DNA of 64,000 nt from contig JACCLO010000011.1 of assembly GCA_029448655.1 (NCBI GenBank), forward strand, positions 1,860,001 to 1,924,000. The letters are read 5' to 3'. Source of the stretch: Wolfiporia cocos. Its lineage: Eukaryota > Basidiomycota > Agaricomycetes > Polyporales > Phaeolaceae. The notes beneath the pieces are model-generated. The model saw nothing but the letters and a program-made list of their open reading frames with translations, did no database searches and was not told the DNA's origin. The number at the start of each line of letters is the position of its first letter. Position 1 is the stretch's first letter. This document shows, piece by piece, positions 4,094 to 43,105 of this stretch. Both the position numbers and the translations under genes were made by a program.

Positions 4094-4110
4094 CCAGGGC
4101 TCATAACCTT
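4094..4110 (-). other. Putative primer binding site (initiator tRNA anticodon arm)
   Basis: The plus strand reads GGGCTCATAACC at 4097-4108, which is the anticodon stem-loop (CAU) of a eukaryotic initiator tRNA-Met. On the element's coding (minus) strand this is therefore complementary to that tRNA. It lies about 155 bp upstream of the gag start, where a copia PBS is expected. Copia-type elements such as Drosophila copia and yeast Ty5 are known to prime from a half-tRNA-iMet cut in the anticodon loop. The match is seen; the priming role is inferred. Confidence 0.55.
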
Positions 4111-4395
4111 TAGAATCTAGATAGCCGTGAGCTTATCTCAGTCGAGGTGATGGTACAACGACTCTATTACAGTACCTAGATAGCCGTGAGCTTATCTACG
4201 TAGTACTGTGTGTAAGTATACGAGGCGATTGTGTATTATAGAGTAAGAAACATACCTCAGTCGAGGTGATGGTACAACGACTGAGGAAAGAGAGAAACGA
4301 AGTGAGCGAGGCTATATGAACCAATCTACACGTGATATTGACAGGTTGGCATTCGATGACGATGGGACATATCTAGTGACGACACCATCACATCT
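4111..4395 (-). mobile_element. Probable 5' LTR region of the copia element
   Basis: This non-coding stretch lies between the putative PBS and unrelated sequence left of the GNAT gene. It holds two short direct repeats: a 22-bp unit at 4117-4138 and 4176-4197, and a 26-bp unit at 4138-4163 and 4257-4282. TGATGG at 4148 and CCATCA ending at 4390 would make TG..CA-type ends, but then the LTR would not abut the PBS, so the exact edges are unresolved. The second LTR is outside the window and cannot be compared. Confidence 0.45.
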
Positions 4396-4790
4396 TTCCC
4401 CCGTTATCCCGCCAGTGTGGAGCAGCGACACAGCGGTCGCGCACACGGTAAGAGCAGCGAGCGAGTAATAATCTTCTATAGAAAAGCATCTTGATTAGGC
4501 AACTCCCTAATACGGTGGCCACTGCCCATGGAACCCGCCGACCGAAGCTTGAGGCCTCCGACCGAAGCCTGGAGTTTGTCGCACCTCGGCTACGTCACGG
4601 TAACTCTACATTCCGTGCGAGAGCACGGGTTATCCAGCTAGTATTCGTATATAGTGGCCTCAATACATACTGAACTTTGTTCTCGTTATCTCTCCCTCTC
4701 CTTCTCGACGACCCACCCCTCCGCTACCTGCTCCGTTTTTCCTCCCACACCAGCAGAATACCTTCGGAGCTTTTCACGCAGCGCACCATT

Positions 4791-5576
4791 ATGACATTCG
4801 TCAACCTGTACAAACCGCCGGAACCCCAGCCGCGACTCGACCTTATCGAGCAATATGGTCCTGATCCTTATGACGTCAACTTCGCATTCCCACTACACCT
4901 CGAAACTCTCGAAAGTAACCGCGTGCGACTCACACCCTTCATCCCCTCACTGCACGGCCAACTCTACTGGGATAATGTTAGCAGTAGCTATCAGGAGCTG
5001 TTCCGATATTATCCAATCATTCACAACTCCCTCGCCGAATTTCTGGCATACATCGAGAAGTACTACCGTTCCAACCCCGAATTCATCCTTTTCGCAATGA
5101 TCGATAAGACCCGGCCCGACCTGGCTCATCCAGAGCTGGGCGGAGGGAGCATGGCAGGGGTCATTGCGCTCTTGCGAACGTCTTCTGCAAAGCTCTGTAC
5201 GGAGATCGGATACGTGCTCGTCTTCCCGGCATTTCAGCGTACTCATGTCGCGACTCATGCTACCGGCGTGCTCCTCCAATATTGTCTACGACTGCCCAGC
5301 GAGTCACCGCCAGGACTGGGTCTGAGGCGCATACAATGGATCTCACATCCAAGGAACGAGGCATCTTTGCGTCTGGCGCGGAGGATGGGCTTCAAAGAGG
5401 AAGGAACATTGCGGTGGACATGGGTCTTGCCAGAAGAAATAACCGATGGCGACGCACCACGTGAAGGCGACCCTTGCGCACCGTGTAGGGGGCTGCATTC
5501 CGTGGTGTTAGCGGTATGTTGGGACGATTGGGAGCAAGGGGCTAAGCAGCATGTGGGAGAGCTAATGTACAGATGA
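4791..5576 (+). CDS. GNAT-family N-acetyltransferase (RimJ/RimL type), intact copy
   Basis: Intronless, 261 aa. The fold reads as a GNAT acetyltransferase of the RimJ/RimL (Acetyltransf_3) type: N-terminal strand with RVRLTPF (residues 44-50), beta-4/beta-5 acetyl-CoA region GYVLVFPAFQRTHVATHAT (140-158), and the C-terminal NEASLRLARRMGFKEEGTLR block (189-208). The family transfers acetyl from acetyl-CoA to an amine; the substrate here is unknown. The ATG at 4791 is chosen because the duplicate locus starts at the equivalent codon and homology stops just upstream; the upstream in-frame ATG at 4677 is not shared. It is convergent with EH1. Its duplicate at 42064-42854 is broken, so this is the only working copy in the window. 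Confidence 0.85.
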   Translation: MTFVNLYKPPEPQPRLDLIEQYGPDPYDVNFAFPLHLETLESNRVRLTPFIPSLHGQLYWDNVSSSYQELFRYYPIIHNSLAEFLAYIEKYYRSNPEFILFAMIDKTRPDLAHPELGGGSMAGVIALLRTSSAKLCTEIGYVLVFPAFQRTHVATHATGVLLQYCLRLPSESPPGLGLRRIQWISHPRNEASLRLARRMGFKEEGTLRWTWVLPEEITDGDAPREGDPCAPCRGLHSVVLAVCWDDWEQGAKQHVGELMYR

Positions 5577-5701
5577 TGGAAGTAATGGAGACAACATTGA
5601 TCATGCACCGCGCGTTGTAATAAAACGCTCGACGCTCCATACAAATGTGCCAGCAGAGGTGCTATGCGACGAAGAGGCAACGCTCATGGTGATCATGAGA
5701 A

Positions 5702-7507
5702 CTAGTCATATCCCACTTGCCCTTCGACGACCCCGAAAGCTGGCCCTCCTTTGCCGAACATCGCGCGCACGTCGGCAGCAAGTTCATGGGGCTTCTCATG
5801 AGCGGCGAAATGTCCACCACTCTCATGCTCCGATTCGAATACAACATTGCCGAGAGTGCGAGCCCAGCTAGAAGGGGCGGAGACAGTCAGTTTAAATGAC
5901 GAACTCAGCCATAAGTTTACTCACGTCTTCGGCACTGCGACAAGTTCTCTAGGGAAATATGACAGACCGCAAGGAATTGATGACCAGAGGCTGCGGCCGT
6001 AGTCACTAGCGGTTACTGTCTCGTAATAGATTCTGACCGATGCCGCAGGACCCGCTCTCGAGAACCAATAGACGGAGACCCATGCCAATACTACAGAGTA
6101 TACACAGAGGTCAGTCCGGAGACATATGACGCACAGTTGCTGACATCCCTTCATCATCGTCCCACGAATAGCTGTCGGACCATTGGACGAGCTTCTCATA
6201 GATCCACGCGAGCAGCCCAACCGGAGAGTCAGCCAATGAGTATCCAATCGTCTGCGGCTTTGTCGACTGTTCGCTGAAATAACCCCGGCCTTTGTTCATA
6301 AACCACTGGGTGCGTGCGAGACCAGTGCGGTCGCGATCATTGTATGGCGTGAAGAGATATGCCAAGAATTGGCGAGGATGGGTAAGAAGAGAGGGGGACT
6401 GGCGGGCACTAAATTTGAGCGTATGAGAACAAAGTTAGGAATCTTCCGGTATCCTGGCAGACATACTTGGGGAAATTGGTATGCCAAGCCTTTACGCTCT
6501 GGTGCCCATACACATGTGCGAGTTTGCGAGAGATCTGTGGCACCGCAGCAATGTCAAAACCCGAGCATACATTGCATCGGGCTTCACGTACATGGAATCC
6601 CCAGTCTCCTCCTTGTACGGCTGTGGCAACCATTAGCAATCAAATGTATACTAGACGATATGTTGACAACGCCACAAGGACAGTAGCGCAGGTACGCAAT
6701 GATGATTTCCATCGCGAAACCACAACGTCGGCACCGTAGAGCACAGGACGCACACACAGAATGTCAGACAATGATAGGAGCCGATTCTATATATTCTGGA
6801 GCAGCCTGTGAGGATCAATCCGAGGAAGACTCACCGTATTCACTGTAGCCGAGAGAAAGCATCAATCTATTCGCTACCTGTATTCACAGGCTCATCAATC
6901 AGATGCTTATGTGATTGATGCATCTATACCTCAGCATACTGTTCGACACCGAAACCTGGTTTGGTGGCTGCCTCGGAGAACCCAAAATTAGGCAGACTGG
7001 GAGCGACGACGTGGAAGCTGGGATGATCCGGCGAAGCGGTTGTCAGTAGTGGCAGGACCTTCTGCACCTCGAGGAAATGCCCTGGCCCTGATAAAGGTAG
7101 CTTGAGACCTGATTATATGCTATCATCAATGGTGAATTGCGCATACACCCGTGAAGAAACAAGAGCGGGATCGCGTTTTGCACGGTGCTTCTTTGATGGA
7201 CGTAGTGAATGTTCAAAGTACCAAAACCATCCACTTGTATGTCTCGTGTAAACTGTGGCAGCTCGTTGATCTTTGCTTCAGCCGCCCGCCAGTCGAAACC
7301 GTCTTTCCACCGGGCAAGCAGGCGACGTATATCGGCAAGAGGTGCACCATAGTCCCATCCTGCTTCCTCTATCTCATCAGGTAGACGAGTGACCCCCAGC
7401 TTCTGTTGCAGTAGCTCCAGCGCTGCGTTGGATACATGGACCTCGAAGGGTTCCTCTGGGCCAAGTAGCGTTGTACTCAATGCATCTGTCCTATCGCTAT
7501 TGGCCAT
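5702..7507 (-). CDS. Epoxide hydrolase EH1 (microsomal type), splice donor of intron 6 damaged
   Basis: Eight exons by comparison with EH2: 7147-7507, 6930-7087, 6835-6877, 6592-6620, 6467-6534, 6149-6408, 5925-6090, 5702-5867 (416 aa if fully spliced). An N-terminal EHN domain is followed by an alpha/beta-hydrolase: oxyanion HGWPGHF, nucleophile Asp in GGDWG, acid Glu in FPREL, and His in GGHFAA. The family hydrolyses epoxides to vicinal diols. All frames are intact, but intron 6 begins GG (6148-6147), where EH2 has GC and EH3 has GT. Read-through ends at a stop at 6111-6113, which would remove the last two exons and the catalytic Glu and His. It is divergent from ureG by about 1 kb. Family call is firm; whether the gene still works is uncertain. 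Confidence 0.85.
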
Positions 7508-7600
7508 AACGCCCACTGCAGAGCAGCGGTATGTAGACAGCTGGTGGCGACCGAGTCAATGTCGGTAAGAGGACTACAACCCGAAAGTCGGCGAAGACGC

Positions 7601-8500
7601 GCATTGGCGCTGTACCTGATGACATCACCTTCCCCGACAACGCGTATTCCACTGTTCGTCTCGTGCCCGATGGTGTACCTCGTGCCTATACTAGCTATCA
7701 TCTATGCTTTGAGTGGATCCGAGGATAGGAGCAGTACTACCTCCCCAGCGCGCCGACAATTTGTCCACATCTTCAGCCACCAAATCGAGCAGGTCAACAC
7801 GGGCGCGTTGAAATGGCGCCTCTCCCATTCTGCTTGGATGCTGCGCTGCATCAGTCGTACTGATTGAGAGCTATATAACCCCTGTCAGAATGTGCCTTTA
7901 CCATAGAGGCGCGCAGGATCCGCTCTGTTTGTCTCGGACCTTCGCTGCCTGCCTCTTTGGCTGACAGCTGTAAAGCGGTGATATGACATCTCACCCTGCG
8001 GGAGTCAATGCAGGGGTCAGAGCGGGGCAAGTATTACTACAAATCGTAAATCATCAAGCAACCGTAGATTGATCCTTAGCTTTCATGAAAGACTAATATG
8101 ATGGTTGTGGACAGACTTGCAAGTCAACTGCACATCATCGATTCATCGGTGCATCATCGATGCATCATCGACGGGCACCAGATCCTCTATGATAGCCGCT
8201 TACACCACACTCGCCTTATCATCTCAATCCCCACGTAGTCTCAGTTCAGTGGCGAAGCTACTAAAAGAGCACAACCACCTCGCAAGCACTGCTGGCGAGC
8301 CCAAAGATAGATGAACATCAAGATATTACTTCGGTCGGAGCAGCAATGGCGGTTGATCGATCTCTTGATTGGCGCCGCGATTCCGCCTCAAGACGCTCGG
8401 CGCGCGTTATCTCAAGCTAAGGCACTCAGCATGGGGCCGGTCTACTACTCTGTCAGAGTCATTCACGCCTCTTGCTGTGAGCAGCAAATACGCATAAGCC
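7601..8500. other. Intergenic region between EH1 and ureG
   Basis: Shared 5' region of two divergent genes. No gene seen. It contains a short imperfect tandem run of a GCATCATCGA-like unit at 8131-8171. Confidence 0.5.
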
Positions 8501-9653
8501 ATGAAGAACGAGACGGTACAATTCATCAACAACCTCTCCGCGTCTGTGGCAAGCCAGCCACCACAAGCGCACACACACGAGCATGGGGGGGCCTCGCACT
8601 CGCACGATGCGGGGGAACATGGGCACACACATGAGCACCTCGAACATCCAGGTGACTGGCCCTTTGAAATCTGTATAAGCAGAGGGACTGAGCGAATTCG
8701 GCGTGCAGGCAAATTCGCCGAGCGCGACATGCCCGACTACGGGTCGCGCAATTTCGAGGAGCGCGGCTTCACAGTCGGCATCGGAGGGTAAGGGGGTTTG
8801 AATCGCCTGAATTCAGTGCTGAGATGAATGTCACTCCAGCCCCGTCGGCTCAGGAAAGACGGCCCTGACACTCGCTCTCTGCAAGCGACTCCGGCAAGAG
8901 TACAATATCGGTACCGTTCCCCCCGCCTCTCACACCTTTCTTGTCTGATATTGCCGCTTGACGGTTTCCCCAACCATGCACCGTTTGCGACGTGCATTCA
9001 GCCACGGTGACTAACGACATCTTCACGCGCGAAGACCAGGAGTTCCTGATCAAGAACAAGGCGCTGCCCGAGTCGCGCATCCTCGCGATCGAGACGGGCG
9101 GGTGCCCGCACGCCGCAATCCGCGAGGACATCAGCGCGAACATGGGCGCGCTAGAGACGCTGCAGGCGAAGTACGGCTGCCAGCTGCTGTTCGTCGAGAG
9201 CGGCGGTGACAACCTCGCTGCGAACTACTCGCGCGAACTCGCAGACTACATCATCTATGTCATCGACGTCTCGGTGCGCATTTTCCCCACTTGATGAGGT
9301 CGTTATATGCTTTCTGACCCGTATTACATTGCAGGGTGGTGATAAGATCCCTCGTAAAGGTGGTCCCGGTATCTCACAGTCTGACCTGCTTGTCATAAAT
9401 AAGGTACGCGACGCATCTCAACTCCCGTGTCTGTGCTCTGACGTACCTACGCTCTCAGATTGACCTTGCGCCCTTTGTCAACGCGTCCCTCGAGGTCATG
9501 GACAGAGATTCGAAACTTATGCGAGGCGACGGTCCTACTGTGTTCACCAGCGTTAAGGAGGGCAAGGGCGTGAATGATGTTGTAGACCTCATCCTTGCAG
9601 CTTGGAGAGCGGCCGGCAGCCCTGGCACACCCGGTGCCGTATCTATGGAGTAA
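8501..9653 (+). CDS. ureG: Urease accessory protein UreG (GTPase)
   Basis: Six exons: 8501-8651, 8709-8787, 8840-8910, 9002-9273, 9335-9403, 9459-9653; phases agree and give 278 aa, normal for fungal UreG. UreG is a SIMIBI-class GTPase that delivers nickel to apo-urease with UreD and UreF. A His-rich N-terminus (HTHEHGG, HSHDAG, HGHTHEH) is a likely metal store. The P-loop GPVGSGKT spans the exon 2/3 junction. Further conserved blocks are [31 protein letters not shown] (the CPH nickel-binding motif), [27 protein letters not shown] and LLVINKIDLAP (the NKxD guanine specificity motif, split by intron 5). Neighbours are unrelated, as expected where fungal urease genes are scattered. Confidence 0.97.
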
Positions 9654-10121
9654 TAGCGGGAGGAAAGCAAGAAAGTAGGAAGTTTATGCAGTGTATCAAC
9701 TATGAAATGGCAAGCTGCTTTGCCAGACGATAACAAATCGACTCAACCAATTATCGAAACTCTGGCCGCGCTGTGAAATTCCCGCATATTGAACTGCGAC
9801 CTCGGGTCGAGTGAGCGGGCCCTTCCGAGTCCTGAAGGTGCGTTCGTCGTGGGCTTACACCAGAACCACCACATCCAGTGTTTAAAGTGCATGAGCTTCA
9901 CGACTTTCACTAGATCATTGAATACAGTCCTATACTATTCATCGTAGTAATCTTCCTTCCTTCCTTCCTTGCCCCGTGACAGTCGATGAAAATCCTCCCT
10001 ACGCCTTCTCTGAGTGTACAGCTGGGTCAAGCGGCGGCTCAGCAGTGCCTACACCTGTGGAAGTCGCAGTCGGGGCTGGCACACAGTATGACGTCAGTGA
10101 ACCCCCTCAACCAGCGAAAAG
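9654..10121. other. Convergent intergenic region ureG/vip1
   Basis: 3' ends of ureG and vip1 face each other here. A short CTTC microsatellite lies at 9951-9970. No gene seen. Confidence 0.5.
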
Positions 10122-11141
10122 TCAAGGGGACTTGCCAGTAGATGCGCCAGCCTTCTGAGCGTCGGCGATACGCCGGGCCTCCTCGTGGATGTCCAGAACT
10201 TGCTTGGACGTCGTCGTGTAGAATGAGAACACCTTCTGTCCGAAGGGTGACGTGATCGCGCGAGAGTAGTACTATTGAATTTGCCAGGGTGAATCGTCAG
10301 TGAACGGCAATGACTGAGCGACGAATGAACGTACGTCGCTGGCCTGCTTGATATACCCCTTCTGCTCGTCGATCGCCTTGGCCTGCTGCGTCGCGTTGGC
10401 GATCCGCTCTTGCACATGTCCTGAGATCGTCTTGTCGGGACCCAACGCCTTCTCGCCTGCATGCACGCAGTCCTCGTGTCAGTTAGGTTGTTCGCAACCT
10501 TCATGGCGACTACGTACCGAGCTTGGTGTCGAGGGACTGGATGTAGTTCAAGAAACGCGTAGAAATGCCATGCTTGTTGTCAAGCTCGATCGCGCGCTGG
10601 AGGACGTGGTCCTGGAGCGCGTATCCCTTCGCGAGGTACTCTGCAGCGACTGCATGCCATCACAAATCGCGCATTAACGCTCAATACGCTGCCCACGGGT
10701 GCTGGGTACTCACTCGCGGCCCGCGGCTTGTCTGACTGTTCGATATGCCCGGTATGCGAGGACGGGGCCTCGTCCGGGTGCTCTTTCTCGCTCGTTACGG
10801 AGAGCGTCGCGCCGTCGAGGTTGCCGCCGTTGAGCATCAGCGCGGTCTTGGCCGCGGTGGGCTTCTCAAAATGAATGGTGGCAGAGCTCGTGGACGGAGT
10901 GTAGCTGATCGCGGAGATCTTTCCACAGAACCTGGCGTTCAAAGTTTGAGATAATAATCAGCAGTTGGAAGGATGCATGGATGTGTGTGCTCGCGGCACT
11001 CACGAGAAGAACTCAGAGAGATGCTCCTCGCTCGTGGAGGGAGAGATGCCTGAAACCTGCCATTGCGGATATACATCTAAGCATCGTGCATATATACGAG
11101 ATATTGCGGACGCTACGCACCTGTACGGAATATGTCGACAT
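10122..11141 (-). CDS. vip1: RRM protein of the Vip1 family
   Basis: Six exons: 11121-11141, 11004-11056, 10714-10931, 10518-10649, 10335-10456, 10122-10271; phases agree, giving 231 aa. The N-terminus reads MSTYSVQVSGISPSTSEEHL, then FFSFCGKI (RNP-2/RNP-1-like region of an RNA recognition motif) and ATIHFEKPTAAKTALMLNGG. The C-terminal half is helical and Ala/Gln/Lys-rich (ERIANATQQAKAIDEQKGY), ending VLDIHEEARRIADAQKAG. This layout matches fission yeast Vip1 and its fungal homologues, proteins of poorly known function. The short first exon (7 codons) is supported by a good donor (gtgcgt) and by the family's conserved start. Confidence 0.88.
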
Positions 11142-13217
11142 GGTGGTGATGGCTGTACGATGGGGAAAAGACTGGGCAGGCCATGGCTTGAACAACTCGA
11201 AGTAGGCAAGATTGTCAGCCGAGCCACGGTGACGTCGCGCGCCCAGCTCAGCACGTGCTTTTAGGTTCCTGATTCTGATGATGATATGTTTTTCGCAGTT
11301 CAACTTGAAGTCGTTCACCGCGTTCAGGTAGAAAAGCCCCGATGCTGTAGGGGTCAATCAGCTCGTCTCGTGCATCCCACACTGAGGTATACTTAATACA
11401 AGGGTGAAGAGCCTCAGTTTCACATTTCAAGTAAATCATACCAAGAACTTGGACGAACCTTCGCGCGGCTCAAGATGGTCTGCACCGAGTCTCAACAATC
11501 CTTAGATAATTCATTTGCTAGAAATCTCTGCATGAATGAAGAACATTGTGCATTAGCTCAATCACTACCTGACTCACTTACGGTATGTTTCTCTTTCTAG
11601 GAGTTCTGCATAAGCTCTCTGTGGAAGGCAGATGATAGACAATGGCTTGGACCACCGCGGGCTCCGGATATCCTCGGCGATGTCCCTTGTGACTACCACC
11701 TAGGGGGTGCAATTGAGCTGTCCTATCTACCTGGTCAACATGTATTGCTGCCTTTCCCTATGACAATGGCGTCTTCCTCATGAATCTGGCGATGCAGCTG
11801 ATGGTCATGAACGCCCGCTCCGCAAGTTGAGACAGTGGACGATCACCCTTTTGTTTGCTGCAATGGAACACCCTCTGCTCAAATCTGGCGACATCCTAAG
11901 GTTAGGGTGGTACTTTGCAATTTTCGTCCTCGACGCCCGGCCGATCACCACGCACGGCTCGAATGCAGCTCATTATCATTTCCAAGTGTTTCTATCCGAT
12001 TACCGGCCAGATTCCCTTTTGGTGGGGGCCGCTGCACGCACAGTGGCAAGATTTAGTGACGTGAAATGGGTCCTGAATCCTTATTACAGATATAACGCAA
12101 CTATTCGTTCTTCCGGGTGAGTGGCTATCCAGGCATAAGGTTAAGGGAGACAACGGCACCCATATACGGCGCGATCCTAGACTGGGAGATGGAGCCTATT
12201 CAGAGGCAGTCGAGATGAACAGTGGCAGATGCTATCGCCGCGAGTGTATCGATTGTACTTGCAGGCTCAGTGCTATCTAAACGAGGCTGCGATCGCGACA
12301 ATGCATTTTGAAATACACAAGCTTCACTTTCCACGTCCACTCATCCCGCGACACGATGTCGCGGGTTCACTTCATCAGTCCATGGCGGCTTCTCACTGGG
12401 CCTGACTACCCGCAGTGCCTGCGCTCGGAAACAAAGTGCCAACAGACGAGCAAGCCAGCCGTACATACCGCCTTCGGTGCATTCGCCCGAGCACCGAACG
12501 CAAGATGCCACGGCAACCGTGAGTAGCGTCATGTCAATCCACATTACACATTTGACGACATGATCCGCCCTCGAGCTTTTGACGGGCGTCAGCCGCCGAG
12601 ATCGAGCCCGTACCGCAGGTCGGGGGCACGGTGGCGCCTCCGGCACGAGCCATCGCCCCAGCCCGCCCATGCCATGCCCGGCCGATAGTGCTAGCCTCGA
12701 CAGTCCCCGACGAGCGAGCATCAGATGTCATCGGATGCAGGCACACGACGGCCATTATGCCCCGGCCGGTGCGCACCTGGATAGCCATTTGCAGGAAGCC
12801 TGGAAACACTGCAGGACTGGATAGCGATGCTCCCGCGCGCGGGTAACTGCGGCATCGCAAGTGCAAGTCCGCGGACCAGCGCACTGTAGCTGTCATCGGA
12901 TATCCTGCAGGCACTGCTCTTACAATGTCAGGGCCATCTACTACTATACCGGTTGATCTGGTAATTCGCGGGCTTTTTGTGGGAGTCTAACATCAAGTGA
13001 GTTCGCCGTACACTGCAATATGAATCATCGTTGTTGATTGCTTGCCGCAATTACAGAGATGGCTGTTGGGTCGACTGTATCGCAGCAACACTGCATGGAC
13101 ACTGCACCTCATTTTGTATACTGATACAGCACAAGAATTACACCGCTTGATTCCTACATAATAAATTGCGATGCTAAGTTCACTGTGTGACTGCCTCTTC
13201 GGTCGTCCAACAGCCGT

Positions 13218-13725
13218 GCCACAAACTGTGGCTATAAACAAACCGCCCTGTTTCGGCCGGTGTCTTATTACGCTTTCCCCCGACGAAGTAGGGGAGGCGC
13301 ACGGACGTCACGACGGAGTCTGGTTGGTTTTGCAAACGGCCGATGTCGCCGGTCAGCAAGGGAAGCCAGTAGCGGAACATGTGTAATGTCCTGTTCTTAT
13401 CCGTGCAAATTCGGTTCTTTGTACAAATCAGAGATGGCCATTCAAGGGAACGGACTAGCTCAGTATACTGAAGGTGACCTGTTCGTCAATCGATTACTAT
13501 CACTTCTTGTTCGAAGTTGCATGGCGTATCACCACAAACCGTGGCTGTAAGCAATCACAGAACCACTCCGTCCTGGCCGGCGTTTCAGTATACTACTCCC
13601 GACAGACGAGAATGAGCCATCAGAGAGGTGGGCGCGCAGATGCCATGATAGAATTTGTTTGTTTAACAGGCGGCCGACTCATACAAGTAAGGAAAGCCAG
13701 TAGCGAAATATGTGCGATTGCCTGT
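13218..13725. repeat. Imperfect direct repeat pair
   Basis: A block at 13218-13290 (CCACAAACTGTGGCT...) resembles 13530-13612 (CCACAAACCGTGGCT...). A second block at 13350-13395 (GAAGCCAGTAGCGGAACATG) resembles 13690-13725 in the same order. Two copies of a roughly 180-200 bp unit, strongly diverged, offset by about 310-330 bp. Confidence 0.5.
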
Positions 13726-14410
13726 CACAAGCAGATCAGAGTCTCACCTTGGCGAGGTGACGACCTGATAGCATTGCTCTTCTATGCACGTTTCAACCAG
13801 GGCTCTCCGAGCCGCCGACAAACCAGACTGCTTATCATTACTTTCAAATCCAATCGATGCGACGAGCTCCCTTGGAATAATTTCACGCAGGATCTCAGCA
13901 CCCGGACCCGCGACCCGTGCGCATAATCACTACTTCGAGAGATTCCGCACTCGCTAACGATGCGTTCTAGGCAGCCCCTGGACGCATTATGACATCCAGT
14001 AATGCCTCTGATATTGCTCATGATTGACGCCCCCGAGATCACACTCGTACGGCAGCGTAGTGACAAGCGACGTCAACTCTGAGATGCGCCCTCGAGAATG
14101 ACAGCGCCTGCGCTCTTGGCTGCGCGCATGATTGCATCATTATCTTGCTTTGACTCGCCGGCCTGCAGATAATGCTTACCCGACAAACGAGCATCACTCA
14201 TAACCGCACCAGGGCGCTATTTTGCTCTCGAGTCCTCCGCGGGCCAATTTCAATACCAAGTGAACTCGAAAATTTCCCGGATCAGCCATGTCCATTAGTC
14301 ACGGTCGTCTTCTTTTAATAAAGAGTGACGCCGCGGCGTCAGTTAGTCCTCTGCGTCGCAGCGCAGTTGCCCCCGTAATGTGATAAGGGGCGGGAGTACA
14401 ACATCAATGA

Positions 14411-14655
14411 TTGTCCGCCGGCTTGCGCCCTACAACGCTGATGCGGTGGACCCTTCACTCGTTTGTACCGCAAGCTCCGGACAGACTCCGTCCGGAGGTG
14501 CAAAGTGATGTTCCTCAGTTTCCTCCGCGATGCGACAAGAACGGCCGTAAATTCACCATTATCAATGATTGCCTGCCTATTTGCGCCCTGCAACGCTGAT
14601 CTGGCGGGTGGACCCTTTGCTCGTGAACTTCTTGCACCGCGAGCTTCGTCCGGAA
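14411..14655. repeat. Imperfect direct repeat pair
   Basis: 14411-14482 and 14564-14655 share TTGCGCCCT(A/G)CAACGCTGAT, then a GGTGGACCCTT-like segment, then ACCGC(A/G)AGCT and a TCCGG end. Two diverged copies about 150 bp apart. Nature unknown. Confidence 0.5.
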
Positions 14656-14980
14656 GCCCGAGGGAAAGCTCACGGACCCCGCGCATTCAGTTGTGTGAAG
14701 TTGTAACCTGAAGATGTATCACGACGCTCATTACTGCACCGATAACGTTCAGTGATATCAGCCGAGAGGAGGCCCATATAATAGTCTCTGACGGCGCCAC
14801 TTCTGCGACCCAAAACGGTCCACGCACGGCACCAGCTCCTCCAAATCTGTCTTTCCCGGTCTCCAGATGCCAACGGCGCAAGTGAGCATCAGCGCAGGCC
14901 GATTGTCGACCGCCCCATCGATAATCAACCGAGGGACAGCTGCGTGATGCACGAGCCTCGAGGCGCAGGCGCGCGCAGAA

Positions 14981-22409: not shown

Positions 22410-23200
22410 GGGTGGGCAGGCGAGCAGAAGCCGGGCGTTGTGCGGCGCGTCGAGGCGGGGTGCAGACGTGCCCCGTGTATTTAACCCGCGCACAGAGACG
22501 CGCCCGCTCCGAATCGGGGCACCAGATCCCTCCGTGCACCCTGGGAACGCCCGAGGGCTGGCCGTCTCGGATCTCCCTTTCCTGGAGAATCGAAGCTGTG
22601 CCGTCGCGCCCCACTCATTTATCACCAGATACGCCCCGATCGCGACGTAAGCAGTCCCGCTTTGGGCACCCTTAATTACCGTCGTGATGCCCAATCGCCT
22701 GGGCCGGCCCCCGGCGCACGCCGCCGCGCCCGGCCCCGCCCGCACCGCGCGTCGGCATGGCGAGCACGCTGCCGCCGCCGCGCCCGCCGTTGCCCGCCGC
22801 TCGCCGAGCGCCTGCATCCCCAAAAGGACATATTTGATTCGGCTCTCGCGAATCCATCCAGGCACGAGCACGCGCCGCCGTCCAAACCGAACGGATCGCC
22901 TCGGCTCGTGCATCAGTGAGCAGCTGCAGCTGGACGGTGCAGTCTGTGCCCTTGATGCTGCTATCATGATCATCACCCCTCCCATCATCAGATGCTCCCA
23001 CACGGCGCCTCCCTCCGGCATGCGCACAACAGCTCTCGCGATCCGTTTCGGCGCAACGCACCGCGCCCTGCAGATCGCGCCGCCGTGCATCGCGGACCAT
23101 GACACGCGCGCACGGCCGCGCAACTCGCGTACATTGTCGCACACCAGCGCCCGCGCCGGCCAACAAACTACACATCGAGAACCGTAGACACACACCCCGC
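22410..23200. other. GC-rich intergenic region, homeodomain promoter
   Basis: Lies between the homeodomain start and the stop of the Nud1-like gene, both minus-strand, so it should hold the homeodomain promoter and the Nud1-like 3' end. No gene seen; frames here are compositional. Confidence 0.45.
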
Positions 23201-29200: not shown

Positions 29201-29321
29201 CATCCTGCTCGACCCATTCGTCCTCAAGTTCATCAGTCAGCCAGGAGGGTCTCATTTGAGCAGTAGCTGTATCGGATCTCAGCATAGATTCGAGAATAGC
29301 CAGAAATAGTGACTGAAGCAA
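23201..29321 (-). CDS. Nud1/Cdc11-like leucine-rich-repeat septation scaffold
   Basis: Eleven exons: 28247-29321, 26597-28192, 26166-26544, 25991-26062, 25837-25919, 25619-25766, about 25409-25504, 24993-25241, 24720-24769, 24218-24497, 23201-23579 (about 1468 aa). The first 900 residues are disordered and Ser/Pro/Glu-rich, beginning MRPSWLTDELEDEWVEQDED (ATG could be 29321, 29285 or 29255). Then come about a dozen LRRs (LDISRNEIDSL, LRELRADGNRIDSI, LEMLNLSYNRLSRV, LYLSGNALPAGF, VRVLNLNYNFF) and an LRR cap ending RVRVLDGVEVS. This layout matches Nud1/Cdc11, spindle-pole scaffolds of the mitotic exit/septation network (relatives of centriolin). The exon 7/8 junction is uncertain: the strong gtgagt donor puts the next exon out of frame, whereas gtgcct four bases on keeps it. 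The last intron (638 bp) is unusually long. Confidence 0.82.
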
Positions 29322-32300: not shown

Positions 32301-35143
32301 TCGGACGAGGCCGTTCGCCAATTCATCATCTGAATCGATGAACAGAACATCTCTAATTGTTACGTCAGTATAATGCAGGTGATATCAACACCGTCCAAAC
32401 AGCGACAACATTCTAGTTTATATTAACTATTATATCACGGCTCTTCTCTACAATATCCCGAATGCAGCCCGGAGAAGTTCTATTTGCAATGCGGTCCTAT
32501 GAAATCAGGTGGTACGTATAGCCTGCTTGTTTAGGCCAGCCTGCAACTCGGTGGCTTATTATCTCGAGCGCGTCTCCGCTAGCCTCGATGCAACGACTCC
32601 ATGAGCTAAAGATTCTGTCCGTGAGCCCACGTCGTGCTTCCCCGCTGAGTGCTTATGACATGGTATGTGAGCCGCATGCCTCACCTCTTCCATCGAACAC
32701 TCGAAACACATACTCAGTGAGGTAGCCATCTCGGCGCCTTTATCGAGATGTGCTCTAATCTCCATGTACGCCGCATTTCAAGATACGAAGAAGCGCCATG
32801 TGGACTGGGTAGGATGGAAATATACTCATGAACCTTGGTGCGTAGGGCAGATTGCCGCAAGTAAAGATGCGCCCCACATACTGATTCTTCTTCGGAGGTC
32901 CGCGTGATGAGCGCGGTCATCAACATCCTCCGACAGTGCGTCTCTTCGACAACAACCTATTCGATTCCACCCGATCATCGGTGCACTTCCTGGAACACTT
33001 ACTTGCGGTGTAAGCGTTGCCCCGCCACTCAGAACGCTTGGTTAGAATGAGGATAGCGCCCAAAACACATCACATCGTCATCGCGTGCCGGCTCTATGCG
33101 TATCAAGCGCTCATACAGTGGTATGTTGGCACCGCCTAACGGATAGTCAATGCCGGATTTTTAGGATAGACTTCATGAAGCAGCATAATGCGCTGTGATG
33201 TTGCGGTCACTGCGGGGATCAATAGCAATGTGGCTATGATGGACCCCCAAAACATATGTATCAGTAACAAAGTATCTGTGGCAATATCTCTTGTTAAATG
33301 TTCTGTGCGTGTGTTGTGATCTATCTCAAGCAGCGCGTTTAAACCGTCACAGTCACTATGCTGAGTTAAGCTTGGCTGATAGACCATTCCAACGGCGTGC
33401 GTATCACAGTAATTTGTCAAGATGAGCTCGTCAGCCTTCCCTAGATATTCTCACCGGTTCTTCAGCTCACATGTCATAACTGCAACGATTTCGCTGAAAG
33501 TGTTGACCTCGCAGACGATATCGAACCTATGACTCGGAAACCAGCTTGAATGTTCTCAAGCTAGATGTGCATTCAGATGCAACACTAGTACTGCTACCGC
33601 ACATGACCCACATGATGCTACCATAGCGTGGTGCGGTGCACAGAGAACCTCTCGCCTTGAGTCAGAATGCCAGTCTATCTACCCATAACGCGACTGCGAC
33701 AGGCGTTGACCTCCTTTAAGCGTTATCTAACGACCGGCAGGAACGGGAACGTCCATCTGGTTAAGCTAATTATCATCATTCCAGTCATATGCATATGTTG
33801 AATTTCAGTGATTGTTCGGTGCTTGGCCCAATGATATACTCTACATCATCGGTGAAGCTCTACTCGCCTCGCGAACTAGATTGTGCCTGCTGCTTGCCAG
33901 CCCGACTCTGCATGTCCATAGCTGTGCATCAATCTCCATCGTAATATTCACCAGTTGTCCTTGTAGTCACCGAAGCCTAACGCATCATTACTTCCCGAGC
34001 CATTCGGCCGTTGTGGTCAACTTCTATCCATTTTGATTGATATGATACTAGTCTACTTCTGATAGAGCTGTTTAGAAAAACGGGCGATATGGTCTAAGCT
34101 AGTCTGGGAATCACCAACAGAACGGTAGGTAGTACGGAGGGCTGTATGATAATCGTCCGCGATGGATTCTACGATGAACATCAACAAAAGAACAAACCGA
34201 GGAGATCAAGGATGTAGGATTAGGTATGCGCGAATAGCGTATGTGCAACAATTGGGAGCGGACCACACCAGTGGAGATTTTGGGGACTGCGGAAGGGAGG
34301 TTTTGAGAAGACCGTGAGGAAGGCGGTCTGGAGCAAGAAAGTAACAAGAGACCAACGTGCTCGTGGTGAAGGTGATGTGGGAATGCGATGCGATGCGATG
34401 CGATGCGACAATAATCGGGAAATAGGAGTTCTATGATTGGGGGGAGGACGGCGACAGAACGAGTAACACGACAAACGCACAAAAACGAAAAGGCCATCCG
34501 GAGATGAGGAACCAGAGAAAATGTATACGAGAAGATCGGACATTATGTGTAAAATGAAATCATCGAGGGTCTGGAGATGATCAGGGCCGACACTGAACAA
34601 GGGAAGCACACAATTTTGTTGCCGGCTTGCGGCAGACTGATGGGTGGTGGGGAAGCGCCGATGGAGCGGCGTATATGGATGAAGAGGGGTCAAAAGGTGG
34701 ATGTGACGTGATGGAGGGATGGTTCAGTGACAGATATGGTGATGCTGCGGATGTAAATGCCGATTGCGAGCTGTTAGGTTATGGCAATGCTATGCTAGTG
34801 CTGAATGGATGGACGGGATGGGTGATGGGGACAATGGATAGTGAAAATGGAATGCAGAAACACGATGCAGATGCGAGTGATGATGTCCCATGAATGAGGT
34901 ATGCGTATATGGATGTATGGATGTACCGATGATGCGTCAGGTCCGTCCGTGCGATGGTCATGGTAAACAGAAAGGGAAAGGGAGTCGGAGAAAAGAACCA
35001 GAGAGATGAACAAGACCGGACGATGTGTGGCAAAACATGCCCTCGTTTTGTCGAGCAGAAGCAAGGCCTGTTTGGTGCCGCAGGCCCAGTGATGTAAGAG
35101 CAGACGCAGGAGCGTACGGGGTTCCGTCGCAGGTGCGCCTCCG
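29322..35143. other. Long gene-poor stretch
   Basis: No gene I can support over 5.8 kb; frames are short on both strands. A plus frame at 33812-34036 (WPNDILYIIGEALLASRTRL) looks faintly like an F-box start but nothing follows it. A pentanucleotide microsatellite (ATGCG, about five copies) lies near 34384-34408. Confidence 0.45.
33812..34036 (+). pseudogene. Possible F-box-like relic
   Basis: The peptide WPNDILYIIGEALLASRTRLCLLLASPTLH has the spacing of a fungal F-box helix (LP-x-DIL-x-I-x-E-x-L, then LALLLASP). The frame ends after 74 residues and no flanking exon is evident. Basidiomycete genomes carry many F-box relics. Weak call. Confidence 0.2.
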
Positions 35144-36580
35144 TCAGCTCTTGTCGTTCGCATATACCTCGGCACGATCGCCTGTGCGCCATTTTCTGCA
35201 GTGGACGAGCAGAAGCGTCAGCTCTGTGGCAAGCCAGGCACGAGCGCAGCATACACCGTACCTTCGACACGTCCCCGGTACTCACATGTGCCCGGGCGCA
35301 GCCCTCACGACCGCAATGCCCCTAGCCCGCGTGCGACCCCGCGGCCGGCCACGCTCCTTTTCGACGGGCTCCTCGGTCTTCTCCTGGCCATGCTCCAGAG
35401 AACGCTCAAGCTCCTCGTTGCTGAGCACAATGGATGGCACGCGCGCAATGCCCGTGCCACAAACACGCCCGAAGCCCACAACCGTCGGGCCACGTACCCC
35501 GCTCGGGCTCCTGCATCCCCTTGGGGCCGGCGATCGCCCACGTGGCGGCGTCTCAACGCGCTCGGCCTGCGCGACCTTTAGCGACACGACGGGCGCCGCG
35601 GCGCTGCGGAGAAGATGTGCACGTCCCTTCATGGCGGTCGGGCCAGTGGGGAAGGCCGTAGGGAGCGGGAGAGGGCGACGCGCTGGGTACACCTGAAACA
35701 CGCGCGGGGCTGGAGGAGACTGCGAGACTGGGGTGAACGGGTGACGGACGGTGGGGGAGGCTGGGCGGTTGGAGAAGGAGTACGGAGACTCCGAACGGGA
35801 GCGGAGTGAGGAAGACAGGGCAGACTGTGAAACCACAGAAGAGGCGATGGAACGTTGGAAGGCGGAGGTAAGGCGCGGGTCCGTGTTCTCGTCTGGACCC
35901 GCGTCGTTTCCGTGCTTGCACGCGTAATCGAGTGGCTCGGGTTCGAGAGCGTCGCCAGACGGCGTCGTGAAGACGGCGAAGGAAGCTTCTGACGAAGAAG
36001 GAGAGGCGTGGCGAGAGTGAACACCGGCAGGTACGTTCTCCTGCTCATGTTCACCCGCGGTACGGTCGCTAAATGCGCACTCCTGGCCTGCCTGGACAGC
36101 CGGCTTCACATCCCATGGAGCCGCGTACGCGAGCGGAGGACGCTCCTTGCACTTAACGCTCGGGCTACGTGTCTGCCTGGCTACGTCCATGTAGCGCGCT
36201 TTCTGCTGGTAGCATTGATGCGCAAGAAGCAAGTTCGCACGGCCCCGCTGCTGCAAGAACGTCGGTACCCATTCATCCTTCTGTGACAATATCTCGCCGC
36301 TACCGTGGAACGAGCACGGAGACACAGAAAAGTCGAGATTGAAGACAAGCTCGGGCGGAGACTGGTGTCGCAGCGGGGAGCAAGGCGGCGGACGCGCAGT
36401 CTTGCGCCTAGGGATGGCAATGGGAAGGGACGGCTTATAGGCGCGAAGGGGACTTTGAGCGGATTGCAACTTGTATTGAAAATGCGCATCGCGGGAGGTT
36501 TCAATGCGGGAATGATTGGTGCGAATGGCAAGCGGCGTTGAGGCGCACATGATTCGCACCTGGACTGTGGCACTGCACAT
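35144..36580 (-). CDS. Unrecognised Pro/Ser/Arg-rich protein
   Basis: I do not recognise this protein. Two exons, 35286-36580 and 35144-35195, joined by a good GT-AG intron (donor gtgagt, acceptor tgcag) in consistent phase, give 448 aa ending KWRTGDRAEVYANDKS. It has no membrane segment. It is rich in Ser, Pro and Arg, with possible phosphorylation sites (SRHASPSSSE, RSRSESPYS), an acidic coiled stretch (LSNEELERSLEHGQEKTEEP), then a basic run KERGRPRGRTRARG resembling an AT-hook/nuclear-localisation sequence. It could be a nuclear regulatory protein; that is inference from composition only. The first 60 residues are less convincing, so a downstream Met may be the real start. Confidence 0.55.
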
Positions 36581-39500
36581 CAGGGAACCGAGTCATTCAG
36601 CATACAACGCAAGTCTTCAGAGACTATATGCGAACATACCAGACAAGGTTGAGTGTTATAACCCGAAATCACAGGTACGGGACTACAACAAATCGGCGGG
36701 AACACCTGGGCAATGCGCTGCGGTGCACCTTTACAGCCGAGCCTGACAGGGAGCTAGCAGCCCCTACGCAGACTTTGTAGCTTTTGGTGTGGCGGTGCTC
36801 CGGTCTCGCTGTTCACTGAGCGCGTTCCCTTGTAGCGTCGGACTGGACTAACGTTGGGCTGACCGGGGCTGACTGGAGTAACTGCACGGTCCTGCTGAGG
36901 CGAGAAGCTGAGCTCACTATATGCACGCTCAATACGGCGCTGTGGAAATGAGACAAGAAGTGGAGCTCACGAAATCAGTCTGGTGAGATTTTATGGCAGT
37001 GTGTGGTCCTGTTCGGTGATGAAGAATGGCCGAACAGATCAAAGACGGAACAATGCGAATTCACAGCCTGGGGGCGCGAGCCTGCTGAGCCTCAATGCTG
37101 CAAGACAACTAGAGAGCCACAAGTCTGTGTACAGTGGATACGGAGGACGCGAGAGTGAAGAGGGGAGCCGTTGCAAACTCGAATGAGTTTGTCGACTAAA
37201 AGGGATGTGCGGGCGTCTACCCCGCACTGTGCCATTTATTTTTATTTATTCCACGTGCCGTCGCGACAGACGCTCACCCGAAGGGTCTCCGCCACTACGG
37301 CGCCTGGACGCGCACTTACTTCGAATTCCTTGATGAATTGCTTGCCACACCGGCGACAGGCCCCACCGCATCCGTCACGACGACTTGTTGATACAGCACG
37401 CCTGGGCCTGCTCGCTTCACACTGCGACTCTGTCGCCGCATTGCCTGATTTTGTCTGTCCATACTAAATTGCTGAATGAACGGCGACCGTTTTTGACAAA
37501 TGACTCATGGCTCGCGCACAATAGCTTGCACGGGAAGCGTTCAACATGCAAATCCCATTAATGATTTACGGCCTCGTGTCTCACGATGTGCACGGCTCAC
37601 CATGGCCTCTCTGACAACTGCTTGACGTGTGCCGTCCCAAAAAGGTGAACAGCCAAAGGCCGGTGTGATGGACGTGCAAAGGTCTAATCATCCTGACCTG
37701 GGCCATCAAATTCAACAAAACCGCCCGCGGGCCACGGCATTCTCTGCCATACATGAGAATCACATCGTGGACGCTTCCTTCTTCTCTTGTCTGCTCTACG
37801 GATTGATCGCGTCCCCTGTTGCAGAAGCACAGCTTGACAATTTTTCCTGATGGCTCGTACGGAGAGACTGCGTATTCAGAATCGTAGGACCCGCGTAAAC
37901 CTAACCTAATACAACTCCGAACGGTGGACAATGCGATGTGTGCACCAATTCCGCGCCGTGTCTGCATACGCCGAGAAGCACCGGAGGCATCGGCCGCAGC
38001 CACAGATACTAGTGAAGGTAGGTGAAGGCTTGGTATATCCGATCACGCGTACGTAAAGATTGACATCAACCAAGCACATGCCGTCATAATTCTCTGCGTA
38101 TGACCGTCTAGATTTATGTCTTCAGCGCAGATCTCGGCCATGTACTCAGCAGGAACATATGATGTGGCGACGGAGTCCGCCGCTGTCGAGGTCTAGATGT
38201 AGCTACTATGTCGCACACGCGACGAACGCAGCCATACCGATGATCTTCCACTTCATACAATTGCCTCTTCCACCTTCATATATTTGCAAGTGGCGAGCTT
38301 GTCGCCGCACAACTACCTCATGTCTGATTTTCCAGATATCGATTCGTCGCTCGTAACGAAGCTCCCAAACGATTGGCGTTTCTACCCGACATTATCAACT
38401 AGCTACTCGCGCTCTTCGGTAATGACGCCGGACTGGAATTGCGACCGCTGCTCCACAATCCGGATGCATCGGAAATATGTCTTCGTCGTCGTCGTCGTGT
38501 CTGTAGCACATGTCCTCGGTGCGCGCTGCTAGCTTCCCGGTGGCAATCGCAGAACATTCTGCTTAGACGAACGGAGAGCGTGTTGCCGCTTTGCGGAACT
38601 TGTGCGGGCCCAGAATGTGCAGTCATCCGGGCCTCCGCCTCAGTTTGGGCGAATCCACCGAGCTCAAGGGACGAATGCCATCATCCACGGCGGCAATTGT
38701 AACTTCTTCCGGGCATGTGCTAGTCACATAGTGTGCTGGTAAATTTCCGTGTAAATCCTTCTCAGATGAGTTCCTGGAATCATTCAAACTGACACAGTGT
38801 GTCTCGCTGATGAAGTCGTCATTCCCCTGCGCAGATACGACGACATTGCCATCCGAAAACGGCAGATGGTCTCTAGCGTTGATGGTAGCACACACGTACA
38901 ACCGAATAGATAGGTGACAGCCGTATTCGGCATTGCGCTAATCATTCCCGGAAACGAAAAGAAGGACAGTGGCAAGCTTTTCCCGTGGCGTCATCAAGTC
39001 AATATAGCGACTATTTACAAGGCGGGTCGATGACATTGCTCGGGGATCGACGATTGAATATTCATTCTCGCATGGATCTGATCTCAAATATGCCGATTTG
39101 CGCCGTGTTCTATAACTTATATTCTTCTGTGCATGGAATTAATCTCTGTCATAGCTCAGGATGGTTACATTGCGCTGCATTCAATGCGCCATTCTCTGCC
39201 CGTTGTTACGGCGCAACCGTAGATGGATTGAATACCCCCTGCTTTAGCTGCGTTTCATGTATTGTAAATCGCCGTATCTCTTCAATCTTCCCATTATTAT
39301 AAGACATTCACGGAGTCATTGCGAGCGGCTATGTCCTCTTCGAGAGATTACGCCGCTGCTCCCTCCTTCCAGCGTGGCTCCTACTATGGTCAAGATGCGA
39401 CGAGTTAGACTGTTGACTGTTGACATATGAACGCAAGAATGCGTGCATCGGTACCGGTATGCGCGTTGTCTGAGTTCTATCAACTTCTGGCTTGAAATTT

Positions 39501-40009
39501 GCGCTACTGGACTGTCGCACCATTGTTTCATTTTCCAACATCGCTTCAAATCATAGCTCGAGATCTTCATGCTGCTAATAGCCTGTGATATTAATGCTTC
39601 TATTGTTCGCTGTTGGTTCCTCATGTCGCCCAGTATTGGGTCTGACCCACGATGTTCTATGCGGAGTATGATACGGAAGCGTGGCGACGAATGAATATTG
39701 AATGGCGCCAGATATTGCTACATTCAAACAAGAATAGAAGCGCAATGCTCGACGAGGATATATATGTTGATCAAAGTGGTGGTCGGCTCATTCGAGAATT
39801 TGCTCTAACCTCATATTCGTGTACATGTTCGTGTATCTTGCGATTGCGCTGCGTTGCACGAATGCTGCACGTCGCCGGCTGAGACACCAACTATAAAAGG
39901 TATCGATATAATATATGATCACAACGCCCTCGCCGATACGCAGAAGGAGAGCCAGTAGATCTCGCGAGCGGCTATGACGTCGTGTACATGCTGACTAACT
40001 TCCTTAATG
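36581..40009. other. Gene-poor stretch left of the right inverted arm
   Basis: No gene seen. The first few hundred bases should contain the promoter of the minus-strand gene at 35-36.6 kb. The rest holds only short unrelated frames and a short GTC run near 38485. Confidence 0.45.
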
Positions 40010-40120
40010 CATTGATGACTTCGCCGATTGTCGGTTCTAGTCCTCTGTGACTATTTCTGGGCAGGGTCGCCGCCAACTGTCTACATACCGCTGGTCTGCT
40101 CAAGTGCAGTACCGGGCATT

Positions 40121-41938
40121 ATGGCCAACAGCGATAGGACAGATGCATCGAGTACAACGCTACTTGGCCCAGAGGAACCCTTCGAGGTCCATGTATCCGA
40201 CGCAGCGTTGGAGCTACTGCAACAGAAGCTGGGGGTCACTCGTCTACCTGATGAGATAGAGGAAGCAGGATGGGACTATGGTGCACCTCTTGCCGACATT
40301 CGTCGCCTGCTTGCCCGGTGGAAAGATGGTTTCGACTGGCGGGCGGCTGAAGCAAAGATCAACGAGCTGCCACAGTTTACACGAGACATACAAGTGGACG
40401 GTTTTGGAACTTTGAACATTCACTACGTCCATCAAAGAAGCACTGTACAAAATGCGGTCCCGCTCTTGTTTCTTCACGGGTGTATGCGCAATCCACGATT
40501 GATGATAGCATATAGTTGGGTCTCAAGCTACCTTTATCAGGGCCAGGGCATTTCCTCGAGGTGCAGAAGGTCCTGCCACTGCTGACAACCGCTTCGCCGG
40601 ATCATCCCAGCTTCCACGTCGTCGCTCCCAGTCTGCCTAATTTTGGGTTCTCCGAGGCAGCCACCAAACCAGGTTTCAATGTCGAACAATATGCTGAGGT
40701 ATAGATGCATCAATCATATAAGCGTCTGATTGATGAGCCTGTGAATACAGGTAGCGAATAGATTGATGCTGTCTCTCGGCTACAGCGAATATGGTGAGTC
40801 TTCCTCGGATTGATCCTCATAGGCTGCTCCAGCCCGTCGATATATCAAATGGTTCACGGCTCCTATCATTGTCTGACAATGTGTGTGCGCGTCCTGTGCT
40901 CTACGGTGCCGACGTTGTGATTTCGCGATGGAAATAATCATTGCGTACCTGCGCTACTGTCCTTGTGGCGATGCCAACTTATCGTCTAATATACATTTGA
41001 TTGCTAATATTTGACCACAGTCGTACAAGGTGGAGACTGGGGATTCGATGTATGTGAAGCCCGATGCAATGCATGCTCGAGTTTTGACATTGCTGCGGCG
41101 GCACAGATTTCTAGCAAACTCGCACATGTGTATGGGCACCAGAGCGTAAAGGCTTGGCATACCAATTTCCCCAAGTATGTCTGCCAGGATACCGGAAGAT
41201 TCCCAACTTTGTTCTCATACGCTCAAATCCAGTGCCCAGCAGCCCCCTTCTCTTCTTACCCATCCTCGCCAGTTCTTGGCATATCTCTTCACGCCATATA
41301 ATGATCGCGACCGCGCTGGTCTCGCACGCACCCAGTTATTTATGAAGAAAGGCCGGGGTTATTTCAGCGAACAGTCGACAAAGCCACAGACGATTGGATA
41401 CTCATTAGCTGACTCTCCGGTTGGGCTACTCGCGTGGATCTATGAGAAGCTCGTCCAATGGTCCGATAGCTATGTGTGGGACGATTATGAAGGCATGTCA
41501 GCAACTGTGCGCGATATGTCTCTGGACTGACCTCTGTGTATGCTTCGTAGTATTAGCGTGGGTCTCTATCTATTGGTTCTCGAGAGCGGGTCCTGCGGCA
41601 TCAGTCAGAATCTATTACGAGACAGTGAACGCTAGTTACTACGACCGCAGCCTCTGGTCATCAATTCCTTGCGGTCTGTCATATTTCCCTAGAGAACTTG
41701 TCGCGGTGCCGAAGACGTGAGTAAACTTATGCTGAATTTGTTGTTTGCACTGACTGTCTCCACTCCTCCTAGCTGGGCTCGCACTCTCGGCAATGTTGTA
41801 TTCGAATCGGAGCATGAGAGTGGTGGACATTTCGCCGCTCATGAGAAGCCCCATGAACTTGCTGCCGACGTGCGTGCGATGTTCGGCAAAGGAGGACCAG
41901 CTTTTGGGGTCGTCGAAGGGCAAGTGGGATATGACTAG
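40121..41938 (+). CDS. Epoxide hydrolase EH2 (microsomal type), intact
   Basis: Eight exons: 40121-40481, 40541-40698, 40751-40793, 41021-41049, 41107-41174, 41233-41492, 41551-41716, 41773-41938; 416 aa with all phases consistent. EHN N-terminal domain ([38 protein letters not shown]), then an alpha/beta-hydrolase with oxyanion HGWPGHF, nucleophile Asp in GGDWGF, lid segment [14 protein letters not shown], acid Glu in FPRELVAVP and His in ESGGHFAA. It should hydrolyse epoxides to diols, typically in detoxification after P450 oxidation. Intron 6 uses a GC donor (GAAG|gcatgtcag) with a normal AG acceptor; GC-AG introns are a known minority class. Near-identical to EH1 and clearly related to EH3. 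Confidence 0.92.
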
Positions 41939-42063
41939 TTCTCATGATCACCATGAGCGTTGCGTCTTCGTCGCATAGCACCTCTGCTGGCACATTTGTA
42001 TGGAGCGTCGAGCGTTTTATTACAACGCGCGGTGCATGATCAATGCTGTCTCCATTACTTCCA

Positions 42064-42854
42064 TCATCTGTACATTAGCTCTCCCACATGCTGCTTAGCC
42101 CCTTGCTCCCAATCGTCCCAACATACCGCTAACACCACGGAATGCAGCCCCTTAAAGTTACACGGTGCGCAAGGGTCGCCTTCACGTGGTGCGTCGCCAT
42201 CAGCTATTTCTTCTGGCAAGACCCATGTCCACCGCAATGTTCCTTCCTCCTTGAAGCCCATCCTCCGCGCCAGACGCAAAGATGCCTCATTCTTTGGGTG
42301 TGAAATCCATTGCATGCGCCTCAGACCCAGTCCTGGCGGTGACTCGCTGGGCAGTCGTAGACAATATTGGAGGAGCACGCCGGTAGCATGAGTCGCGACA
42401 TGAGTACGCTGAAATGCCGGGAAGACGAGCACGTATCCGATCTCCGTACAGAGCTTTGCAGAAGACATTCGCAAGAGCGCAATGACCCCTGCCATGCTCC
42501 CTCCGCCCAGCTCTGGATGAGCCAGGTCGGGCCGGGTCTTATCGATCATTGCGAAGAGGATAAATCCGGGGTTGGAACGGTAGTACTTCTCGATGTATGC
42601 CAGAAATTCGGCGAGGGAGTTGTGAATGATTGGATAATATCGGAACAGCTCCTGACGGCTGCTGCTAACATTATCCCAGTAGAGTTAGCCGTGCAGTGAG
42701 GGGATGAAGGGTGCGAGTCGCACGCGGTTACTTCGAGAGTTTCGAGGTATAGTGGGAATGCGAAGTTGACATCATAAGGGTCAGGACCATATTGCTCGAT
42801 AAGGTCGAGTGGCGGCTGGGGTTCCGGCAGTTTGTACAGGTTGACGAACGACAT
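42064..42854 (-). pseudogene. GNAT acetyltransferase, broken duplicate
   Basis: Duplicate of the intact gene at 4791-5576. It begins MSFVNLYKLPEPQPPLDLIE and follows the intact copy for about 41 codons. It then lacks one A in the codons after ETLE (near 42731), shifting the frame. In the original frame a further change (GGC CAA to GGC TAA, stop at 42685-42687) would end translation anyway. The downstream two thirds (from AMIDKTRPDL) remain open, so decay is recent. Two residues extra near the C-terminus (CNFKGL versus CRGL) reflect a 6-bp indel. Confidence 0.88.
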
Positions 42855-42937
42855 GATGGTGCACTGCGTAAAAAGCTCTGATCAAAGGTCTAATTAACCC
42901 GGGAGACCGTCGCGTTCGCCGCGCACATTGCGAAGCG

Positions 42938-42972
42938 GAGGTGGTTGTTTGTTGCTGTGTAACAACCACCTC
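42938..42972. repeat. Perfect 12-bp-stem hairpin beside the right arm
   Basis: GAGGTGGTTGTT at 42938-42949 is the exact inverse complement of AACAACCACCTC at 42961-42972, with an 11-nt loop. It lies about 60 bp outside the end of the right inverted arm and has no counterpart at the left arm. Function unknown. Confidence 0.7.
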
Positions 42973-43105
42973 TGTACATTACCAAGAACAATGGTTGTTT
43001 TAAGCGTGGCCGGCTCCGAGATAGCATCTCGAATTCGGTTGCCCCAAGGTCGGTGGCATTACTACTACATCAGCGTAGAGCCACAAAACCATACCAAGGA
43101 ACAAA

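Follow-up and report, generated by a model that had tools for sequence, protein, structure and literature searches.

Inverted, gene-bearing duplicates surrounding an interval are described in the excerpted text of a study on the staggered-break breakpoints of Drosophila subobscura (PMC5080602), and the locus reported here has the same layout. In that excerpt the Drosophila interval is inverted relative to the standard arrangement, whereas at our locus the outgroup gene order, so far as it reaches, speaks for an interval that is not inverted. Inverted segmental duplications offer a second likeness, namely a unit of more than 1 kb and more than 90% identity that occurs in two places and is not an interspersed repeat; the arms described here are distinctive among them only by their complementary decay and one-sided transposon load. 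In complementary (reciprocal) gene loss, each copy retains a different subset of the genes, and the net effect is that two genes are relocated. Most descriptions of such loss compare different species or follow a whole-genome duplication, whereas here it falls inside one small block of one genome. We regard the locus as a new example of a known phenomenon, an unexceptional inverted segmental duplication whose copies lost complementary genes and one of which later took up transposons. No prior report of this duplication was found in the literature searched, including the excerpted text of PMC9503964, whose Figure 1 legend, in that excerpt, mentions only duplications over 10 kb.

The window is the whole stretch of DNA analysed, 64,000 nucleotides long (C3:1860001-1924000), and the genome searched comprises 64,431,438 bases in 76 contigs. 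A blastn self-comparison of the window returned an inverted pair, 4764-7596 against 40019-42881, with 93.6% identity over 2,868 columns, introns included. The similarity of the arms is far above chance level, and their pairwise alignment bears out the first-pass annotation in describing them as inverted copies, 32.4 kb apart, that both carry EH and GNAT. Of the promoter edges, which had also been taken as copied, the inner one is shared only in part, homology there being ragged beyond ~7520. The window was then extended by 100 kb per side and searched for further arm homology (negative coordinates lie left of the window start). Arm homology restarts outside the window, where -3783..-2266 matches 44449..42926 in inverted orientation at 92.9% over 1,540 columns. 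The two inverted blocks are collinear and alike in divergence (93.6% and 92.9%). In the left arm they are separated by ~7 kb that is absent from the right arm. Because homology continues past 4764, the unit has three genes: EH, GNAT and an amidotransferase that we take to be DUG3-like. Given that the ~7 kb consists of transposable elements with homology beyond them, the left edge at 4764/4767 is a product of insertions and not a duplication end, and the outer edge proposed at 4767/42878 has to be given up. EH and GNAT are indeed both present as arm content, but the third gene belongs to it as well, and intactness is unequal between the arms. The coordinates are collected in Table 1.

Table 1. 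Coordinates of the duplicated unit, its genes and the neighbouring features (window numbering).
Feature	Position	Strand	Remarks
Left arm, inner block (EH and GNAT)	4764..7596	+	From blastn; outer part at -3783..-2266 (C3:1856217-1857734)
Right arm, free of large insertions (EH, GNAT, amidotransferase)	40019..44449	-	40019-42881 pairs with 4764-7596; 42926-44449 pairs with -3783..-2266
Interval between the arms	7597..40018	.	ureG, vip1, KN homeobox gene, Nud1-like gene, others
Left GNAT, open, 261 aa	4791..5576	+	Open frame; PF13302; 96% to W. cocos MD-104 P0001
Right GNAT, pseudogene by its look	42064..42854	-	1-base deletion and in-frame TAA; a shortened open frame persists at 42064-42549
Left EH, 8 exons	5702..7507	-	Intron 6 donor G/GGATGT (GG)
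Right EH, 8 exons	40121..41938	+	Open if the intron 6 GC donor (G/GCATGT) is used
Left amidotransferase, open	-3528..-2462		Outside the window
Right amidotransferase, pseudogene by its look	43106..44172	-	MRRWFAYIS for MCRWFAYIS; TAA at 43562-43564
EH3, older paralogue beside the right arm, open, 403 aa	47018..48638	+	99% to MD-104 P0121
Copia retrotransposon	-952..4384 (1..4384 in the window)	-	Pfam RVT_2, rve and others; LTR pair; CCATC flanks
Remaining transposable-element stack beside left GNAT	4385..4763	.	~4471-4645 is a dispersed ~174-bp repeat

In genome searches with the best candidates scored, the left arm had no matches beyond itself, the right arm and parts of EH3, and the unit as a whole matched only both arms, EH3 and two distant GNATs. 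The unit is thus no interspersed repeat, and it exists as two copies of more than 1 kb, above 90% identity and in opposite orientation. No transposable element was found at three of the four duplication edges, the two inner ones and the outer left one; these three, 7560-8600, 38200-40060 and, the arm itself aside, -5000..-3700, are unique in the genome. Within the interval, three pieces (10000-18000, 7560-8600 and 38200-40060) have no match but themselves, and the Pfam domains cobW, RRM and Homeobox_KN are present; vip1 is named from relatives so named, and the Nud1-like gene keeps its first-pass name. A candidate third arm block, 50643-51674 against -22154..-17712, was collinear and inverted and was dropped as a dispersed ~1.03-kb element with at least 59 genome matches (best 40 of 95 candidates scored). 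One copy of this element, on C23, is 100% identical.

EH carries the Pfam domains EHN and Abhydrolase_1 (EHN E 5.2e-37 for the left EH), and among the best candidates scored its family occupies three places in the genome, the two arms and EH3; in the window self-comparison both arms match EH3 over 47040-48614 at 65-72%. GNAT carries Acetyltransf_3 (PF13302, E 1e-11 for the left copy). The best match of the left GNAT is the W. cocos MD-104 protein P0001 (96%), and distant relatives in the genome searched lie on C56 (50%) and C23 (46%). The amidotransferase is of the class-II glutamine type, starts with MCRWFAYIS, contains Pfam GATase_4 and GATase_6, has 3mdn as its sole PDB match, and was found, among the best candidates scored, at two genome places only, both of them arms.

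The insertions are one-sided, being confined to the left arm. The copia retrotransposon is a recent insertion, with identical LTRs of 278 bp, CCATC on both flanks and 1,511 consecutive codons without a stop. The stack also includes a ~660-bp element with terminal inverted repeats, and the ~174-bp repeat has at least 44 genome matches including itself (best 40 of 74 candidates scored). In the region 4385-4790, just 27 bp of the sequence ahead of left GNAT is shared between the arms. Since its former upstream region has been displaced ~7 kb, behind the transposable elements, expression of left GNAT is doubtful.

At the level of the sequence, the disabling changes are split between the copies, with GNAT and the amidotransferase kept in the left arm and EH in the right. 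Left GNAT is open over its 261 codons. Right GNAT has lost one base and contains a TAA, and 161 codons downstream of these remain open. In the right amidotransferase Cys2 is changed to Arg and a TAA is present, and the left copy is open; Cys2 is presumably the nucleophile, as expected of class-II enzymes. The EH copies differ at the intron 6 donor, G/GCATGT in the right arm and G/GGATGT in the left. GC splice donors can be functional, and a frameshift at intron 6 of right EH was dropped because the aligner had permitted GT donors only and the GC donor gives an open frame. The MD-104 EH protein (P0134) has E directly followed by V at this intron. In left EH, intron 6, if retained, brings in a stop inside the intron; the aligner gave one 40-nt alternative there, and the GG donor may be circumvented via a cryptic donor. 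Because each copy has lost different genes, the arms look like ordinary ageing duplicates and not like a DNA-flipping switch. The pairwise dN/dS was 0.39 for GNAT (dS 0.062), 0.36 for the amidotransferase (dS 0.073) and 0.18 for EH (dS 0.128). Among 250 GNAT columns compared with MD-104, the differences private to one sequence numbered 4 for arm 1, 8 for arm 2 and 6 for MD-104; the corresponding numbers for EH (416 columns) were 7, 6 and 3, with five columns differing three ways.

The arms differ at 231 of 4,322 aligned columns (5.3%), with 14 gap events, and 176 of the 231 differences are transitions. Silent sites have diverged by 8.6% in block A and by 7.0% in block B. Once the ragged inner edge is excluded, 90 of 1,194 non-coding sites differ, and these differences are evenly spread (variance/mean 1.03; 2010 of 5000 shuffles as uneven); four-fold and non-coding sites taken together are mildly uneven (116 of 1,681 differ, variance/mean 1.66, 29 of 5000 shuffles). 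When the ragged inner edge was included, silent sites gave a variance/mean of 3.85 (0 of 5000 shuffles) and a run p of 0.0195. Few silent differences fall within 5096-5593, the second half of GNAT, and the longest silent run, which covers this stretch, was reached in 293 of 5000 shuffles; a short conversion tract over this part of GNAT is possible, as is codon constraint there. The longest identical run, 227 bp, lies in the amidotransferase coding sequence and was reached at p 0.0004 in one test and in 12 of 5000 shuffles in another, the latter on all sites. Along the 4,322 aligned columns, divergence gives no sign that the arms are kept alike as a whole. As for the suggestion that the arms may recombine and flip the interval, 4.4 kb of homology and the 227-bp identical run do make ectopic recombination possible, but nothing was found showing that it occurs: non-coding divergence is even, although silent sites as a whole are mildly uneven, and ~7 kb of transposable elements interrupts the left arm.

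In gene trees the arms are sister to each other with MD-104 outside, at support of 0.74 for GNAT and 0.76 for EH (0.81 for EH in a second tree), which is too weak for dating the duplication against the MD-104 split. The 90% clusters of the MD-104 GNAT (P0001) and EH (P0134) have two members each, and those of EH3 and vip1 have one. There is a bare hint that MD-104 also carries two copies of GNAT and EH.

Outgroup order was read from the locus-tag numbers and contig sizes of annotated proteins in best-120 lists. The EH and vip1 lists have 36 species in common; EH and vip1 lie on the same-size longest contig in 20 of them (eight below 425 kb) and do not in 16 (three under different strains). Marasmius, with EH and vip1 352 tags apart, is among the 20. 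In Cerrena zonata the EH tags are 006428 and 006432 and vip1 is 006439, which places the nearest listed EH 7 tags from vip1; the Cerrena GNAT tags are 011504 and 017945. In the tree the two Cerrena EH genes group with Somion relatives, apart from EH and EH3, and for this reason the three genes between the two Cerrena EHs were dropped as a parallel. Daedalea quercina and Fomitopsis schrenkii have EH-type and EH3-type genes (types by tree) that are both on contigs sized like the vip1 contig. In Rhodofomes roseus the EH3-type gene g4752 and GNAT g4757 are 5 tags apart on a same-size contig, the GNAT matching at 57% over 72% of the query. No contig is shared by GNAT and EH in Daedalea, F. schrenkii, Laetiporus, Sparassis or Fibroporia; EH-GNAT pairing was seen only in R. 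roseus and, on a 3.9-Mb scaffold, in MD-104. In the window, vip1 is separated from left EH by one gene (ureG) and from right EH by about five to eight genes, counted by eye. Several genes thus separate vip1 and EH in Cerrena, a spacing that resembles the right arm of our locus and not the left. Taken together, the outgroup gene order favours, with modest confidence, an uninverted interval and an original site at the right arm.

Considering these observations, we hold it to be fairly probable that the three-gene block was duplicated once in inverted orientation, with the right arm as the original, the interval uninverted and complementary decay afterwards. The EH, GNAT and DUG3-like amidotransferase block (~4.4 kb) would have been copied from a site beside the older paralogue EH3 and set between the uL23 gene and ureG, ~32 kb away. 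Template switching during repair is a guess as to the copying route, and a transposable element is an unlikely carrier because the three tested edges are unique. The copies would then have decayed as outlined above, GNAT and the amidotransferase surviving on the left and EH on the right, and transposable elements evidently inserted between the left GNAT and the left amidotransferase, creating the false outer edge. It is possible, though we doubt it, that the 32-kb interval was instead inverted via staggered breaks, the offset breaks flanking the unit being filled in to leave an inverted copy at each breakpoint. The geometry of an inverted pair at both ends of one interval suits such an origin, as does the lack of a transposable element at the three edges tested, and inverted duplications are reported at Drosophila inversion breakpoints in the excerpted text of PMC5080602. 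However, vip1 should then be about two genes from EH in outgroups, and in Cerrena the distance is seven tags, which counts weakly (one distant species, tag arithmetic) against the first-pass proposal that a staggered-break inversion made the duplicated ends.

An original site at the left arm, with the right arm as the inserted copy, seems unlikely to us. GNAT and the amidotransferase are open in the left copy, but which copy is retained says nothing on origin; moreover, EH3 adjoins the right arm, the EH-type and EH3-type genes of Daedalea and F. schrenkii share a contig size, and the R. roseus GNAT is near an EH3-type gene. Only one assembly was examined, and a duplicated haplotype or misjoin could mimic such a pair. 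Such an artefact is nevertheless extremely improbable in view of the 231 differences in 4,322 columns and the 14 gap events, the single-copy flanks and interval in the pieces tested, and the insertions present in one arm only; the near-perfect identity that a duplication by the assembler would produce, which the earlier annotation had set as counter-evidence, is absent. In addition, if the strain is SS20, the excerpted text of PMC9503964 describes a homokaryon with PacBio reads and Hi-C support.

Duplication with loss on the right-arm template, as preferred here, corrects the tempting reading of the arms as a flip-flop inversion cassette. The locus further illustrates that transposon insertions can hide the real extent of a duplication, and through its complementary decay this one block offers a neat natural example of genes relocated by duplication and loss. 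It is a long shot that W. hoelen and W. cocos have resolved the block in different ways (in the genome studied here, GNAT and the amidotransferase moved to the left site and EH stayed at the right), in which case crosses between them could yield spores without a working copy; if true, differential resolution would set up a minor genic barrier separating this cultivated medicinal fungus from its sister species.

The KN-type homeobox gene of the interval (20668-22311) is one of two genome matches, the other being on C12, and reads SNWMIN. According to the excerpted text of PMC9503964, WFXNXR is the motif of HD2 and HD3, and HD1, HD2 and HD3 all lie on Chr02. The gene does not look like a mating-type HD, SNWMIN being unlike the WFXNXR of HD2 and HD3, and was set aside as such. 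In the region 15000-25000, both strands carry numerous long open frames that overlap one another.
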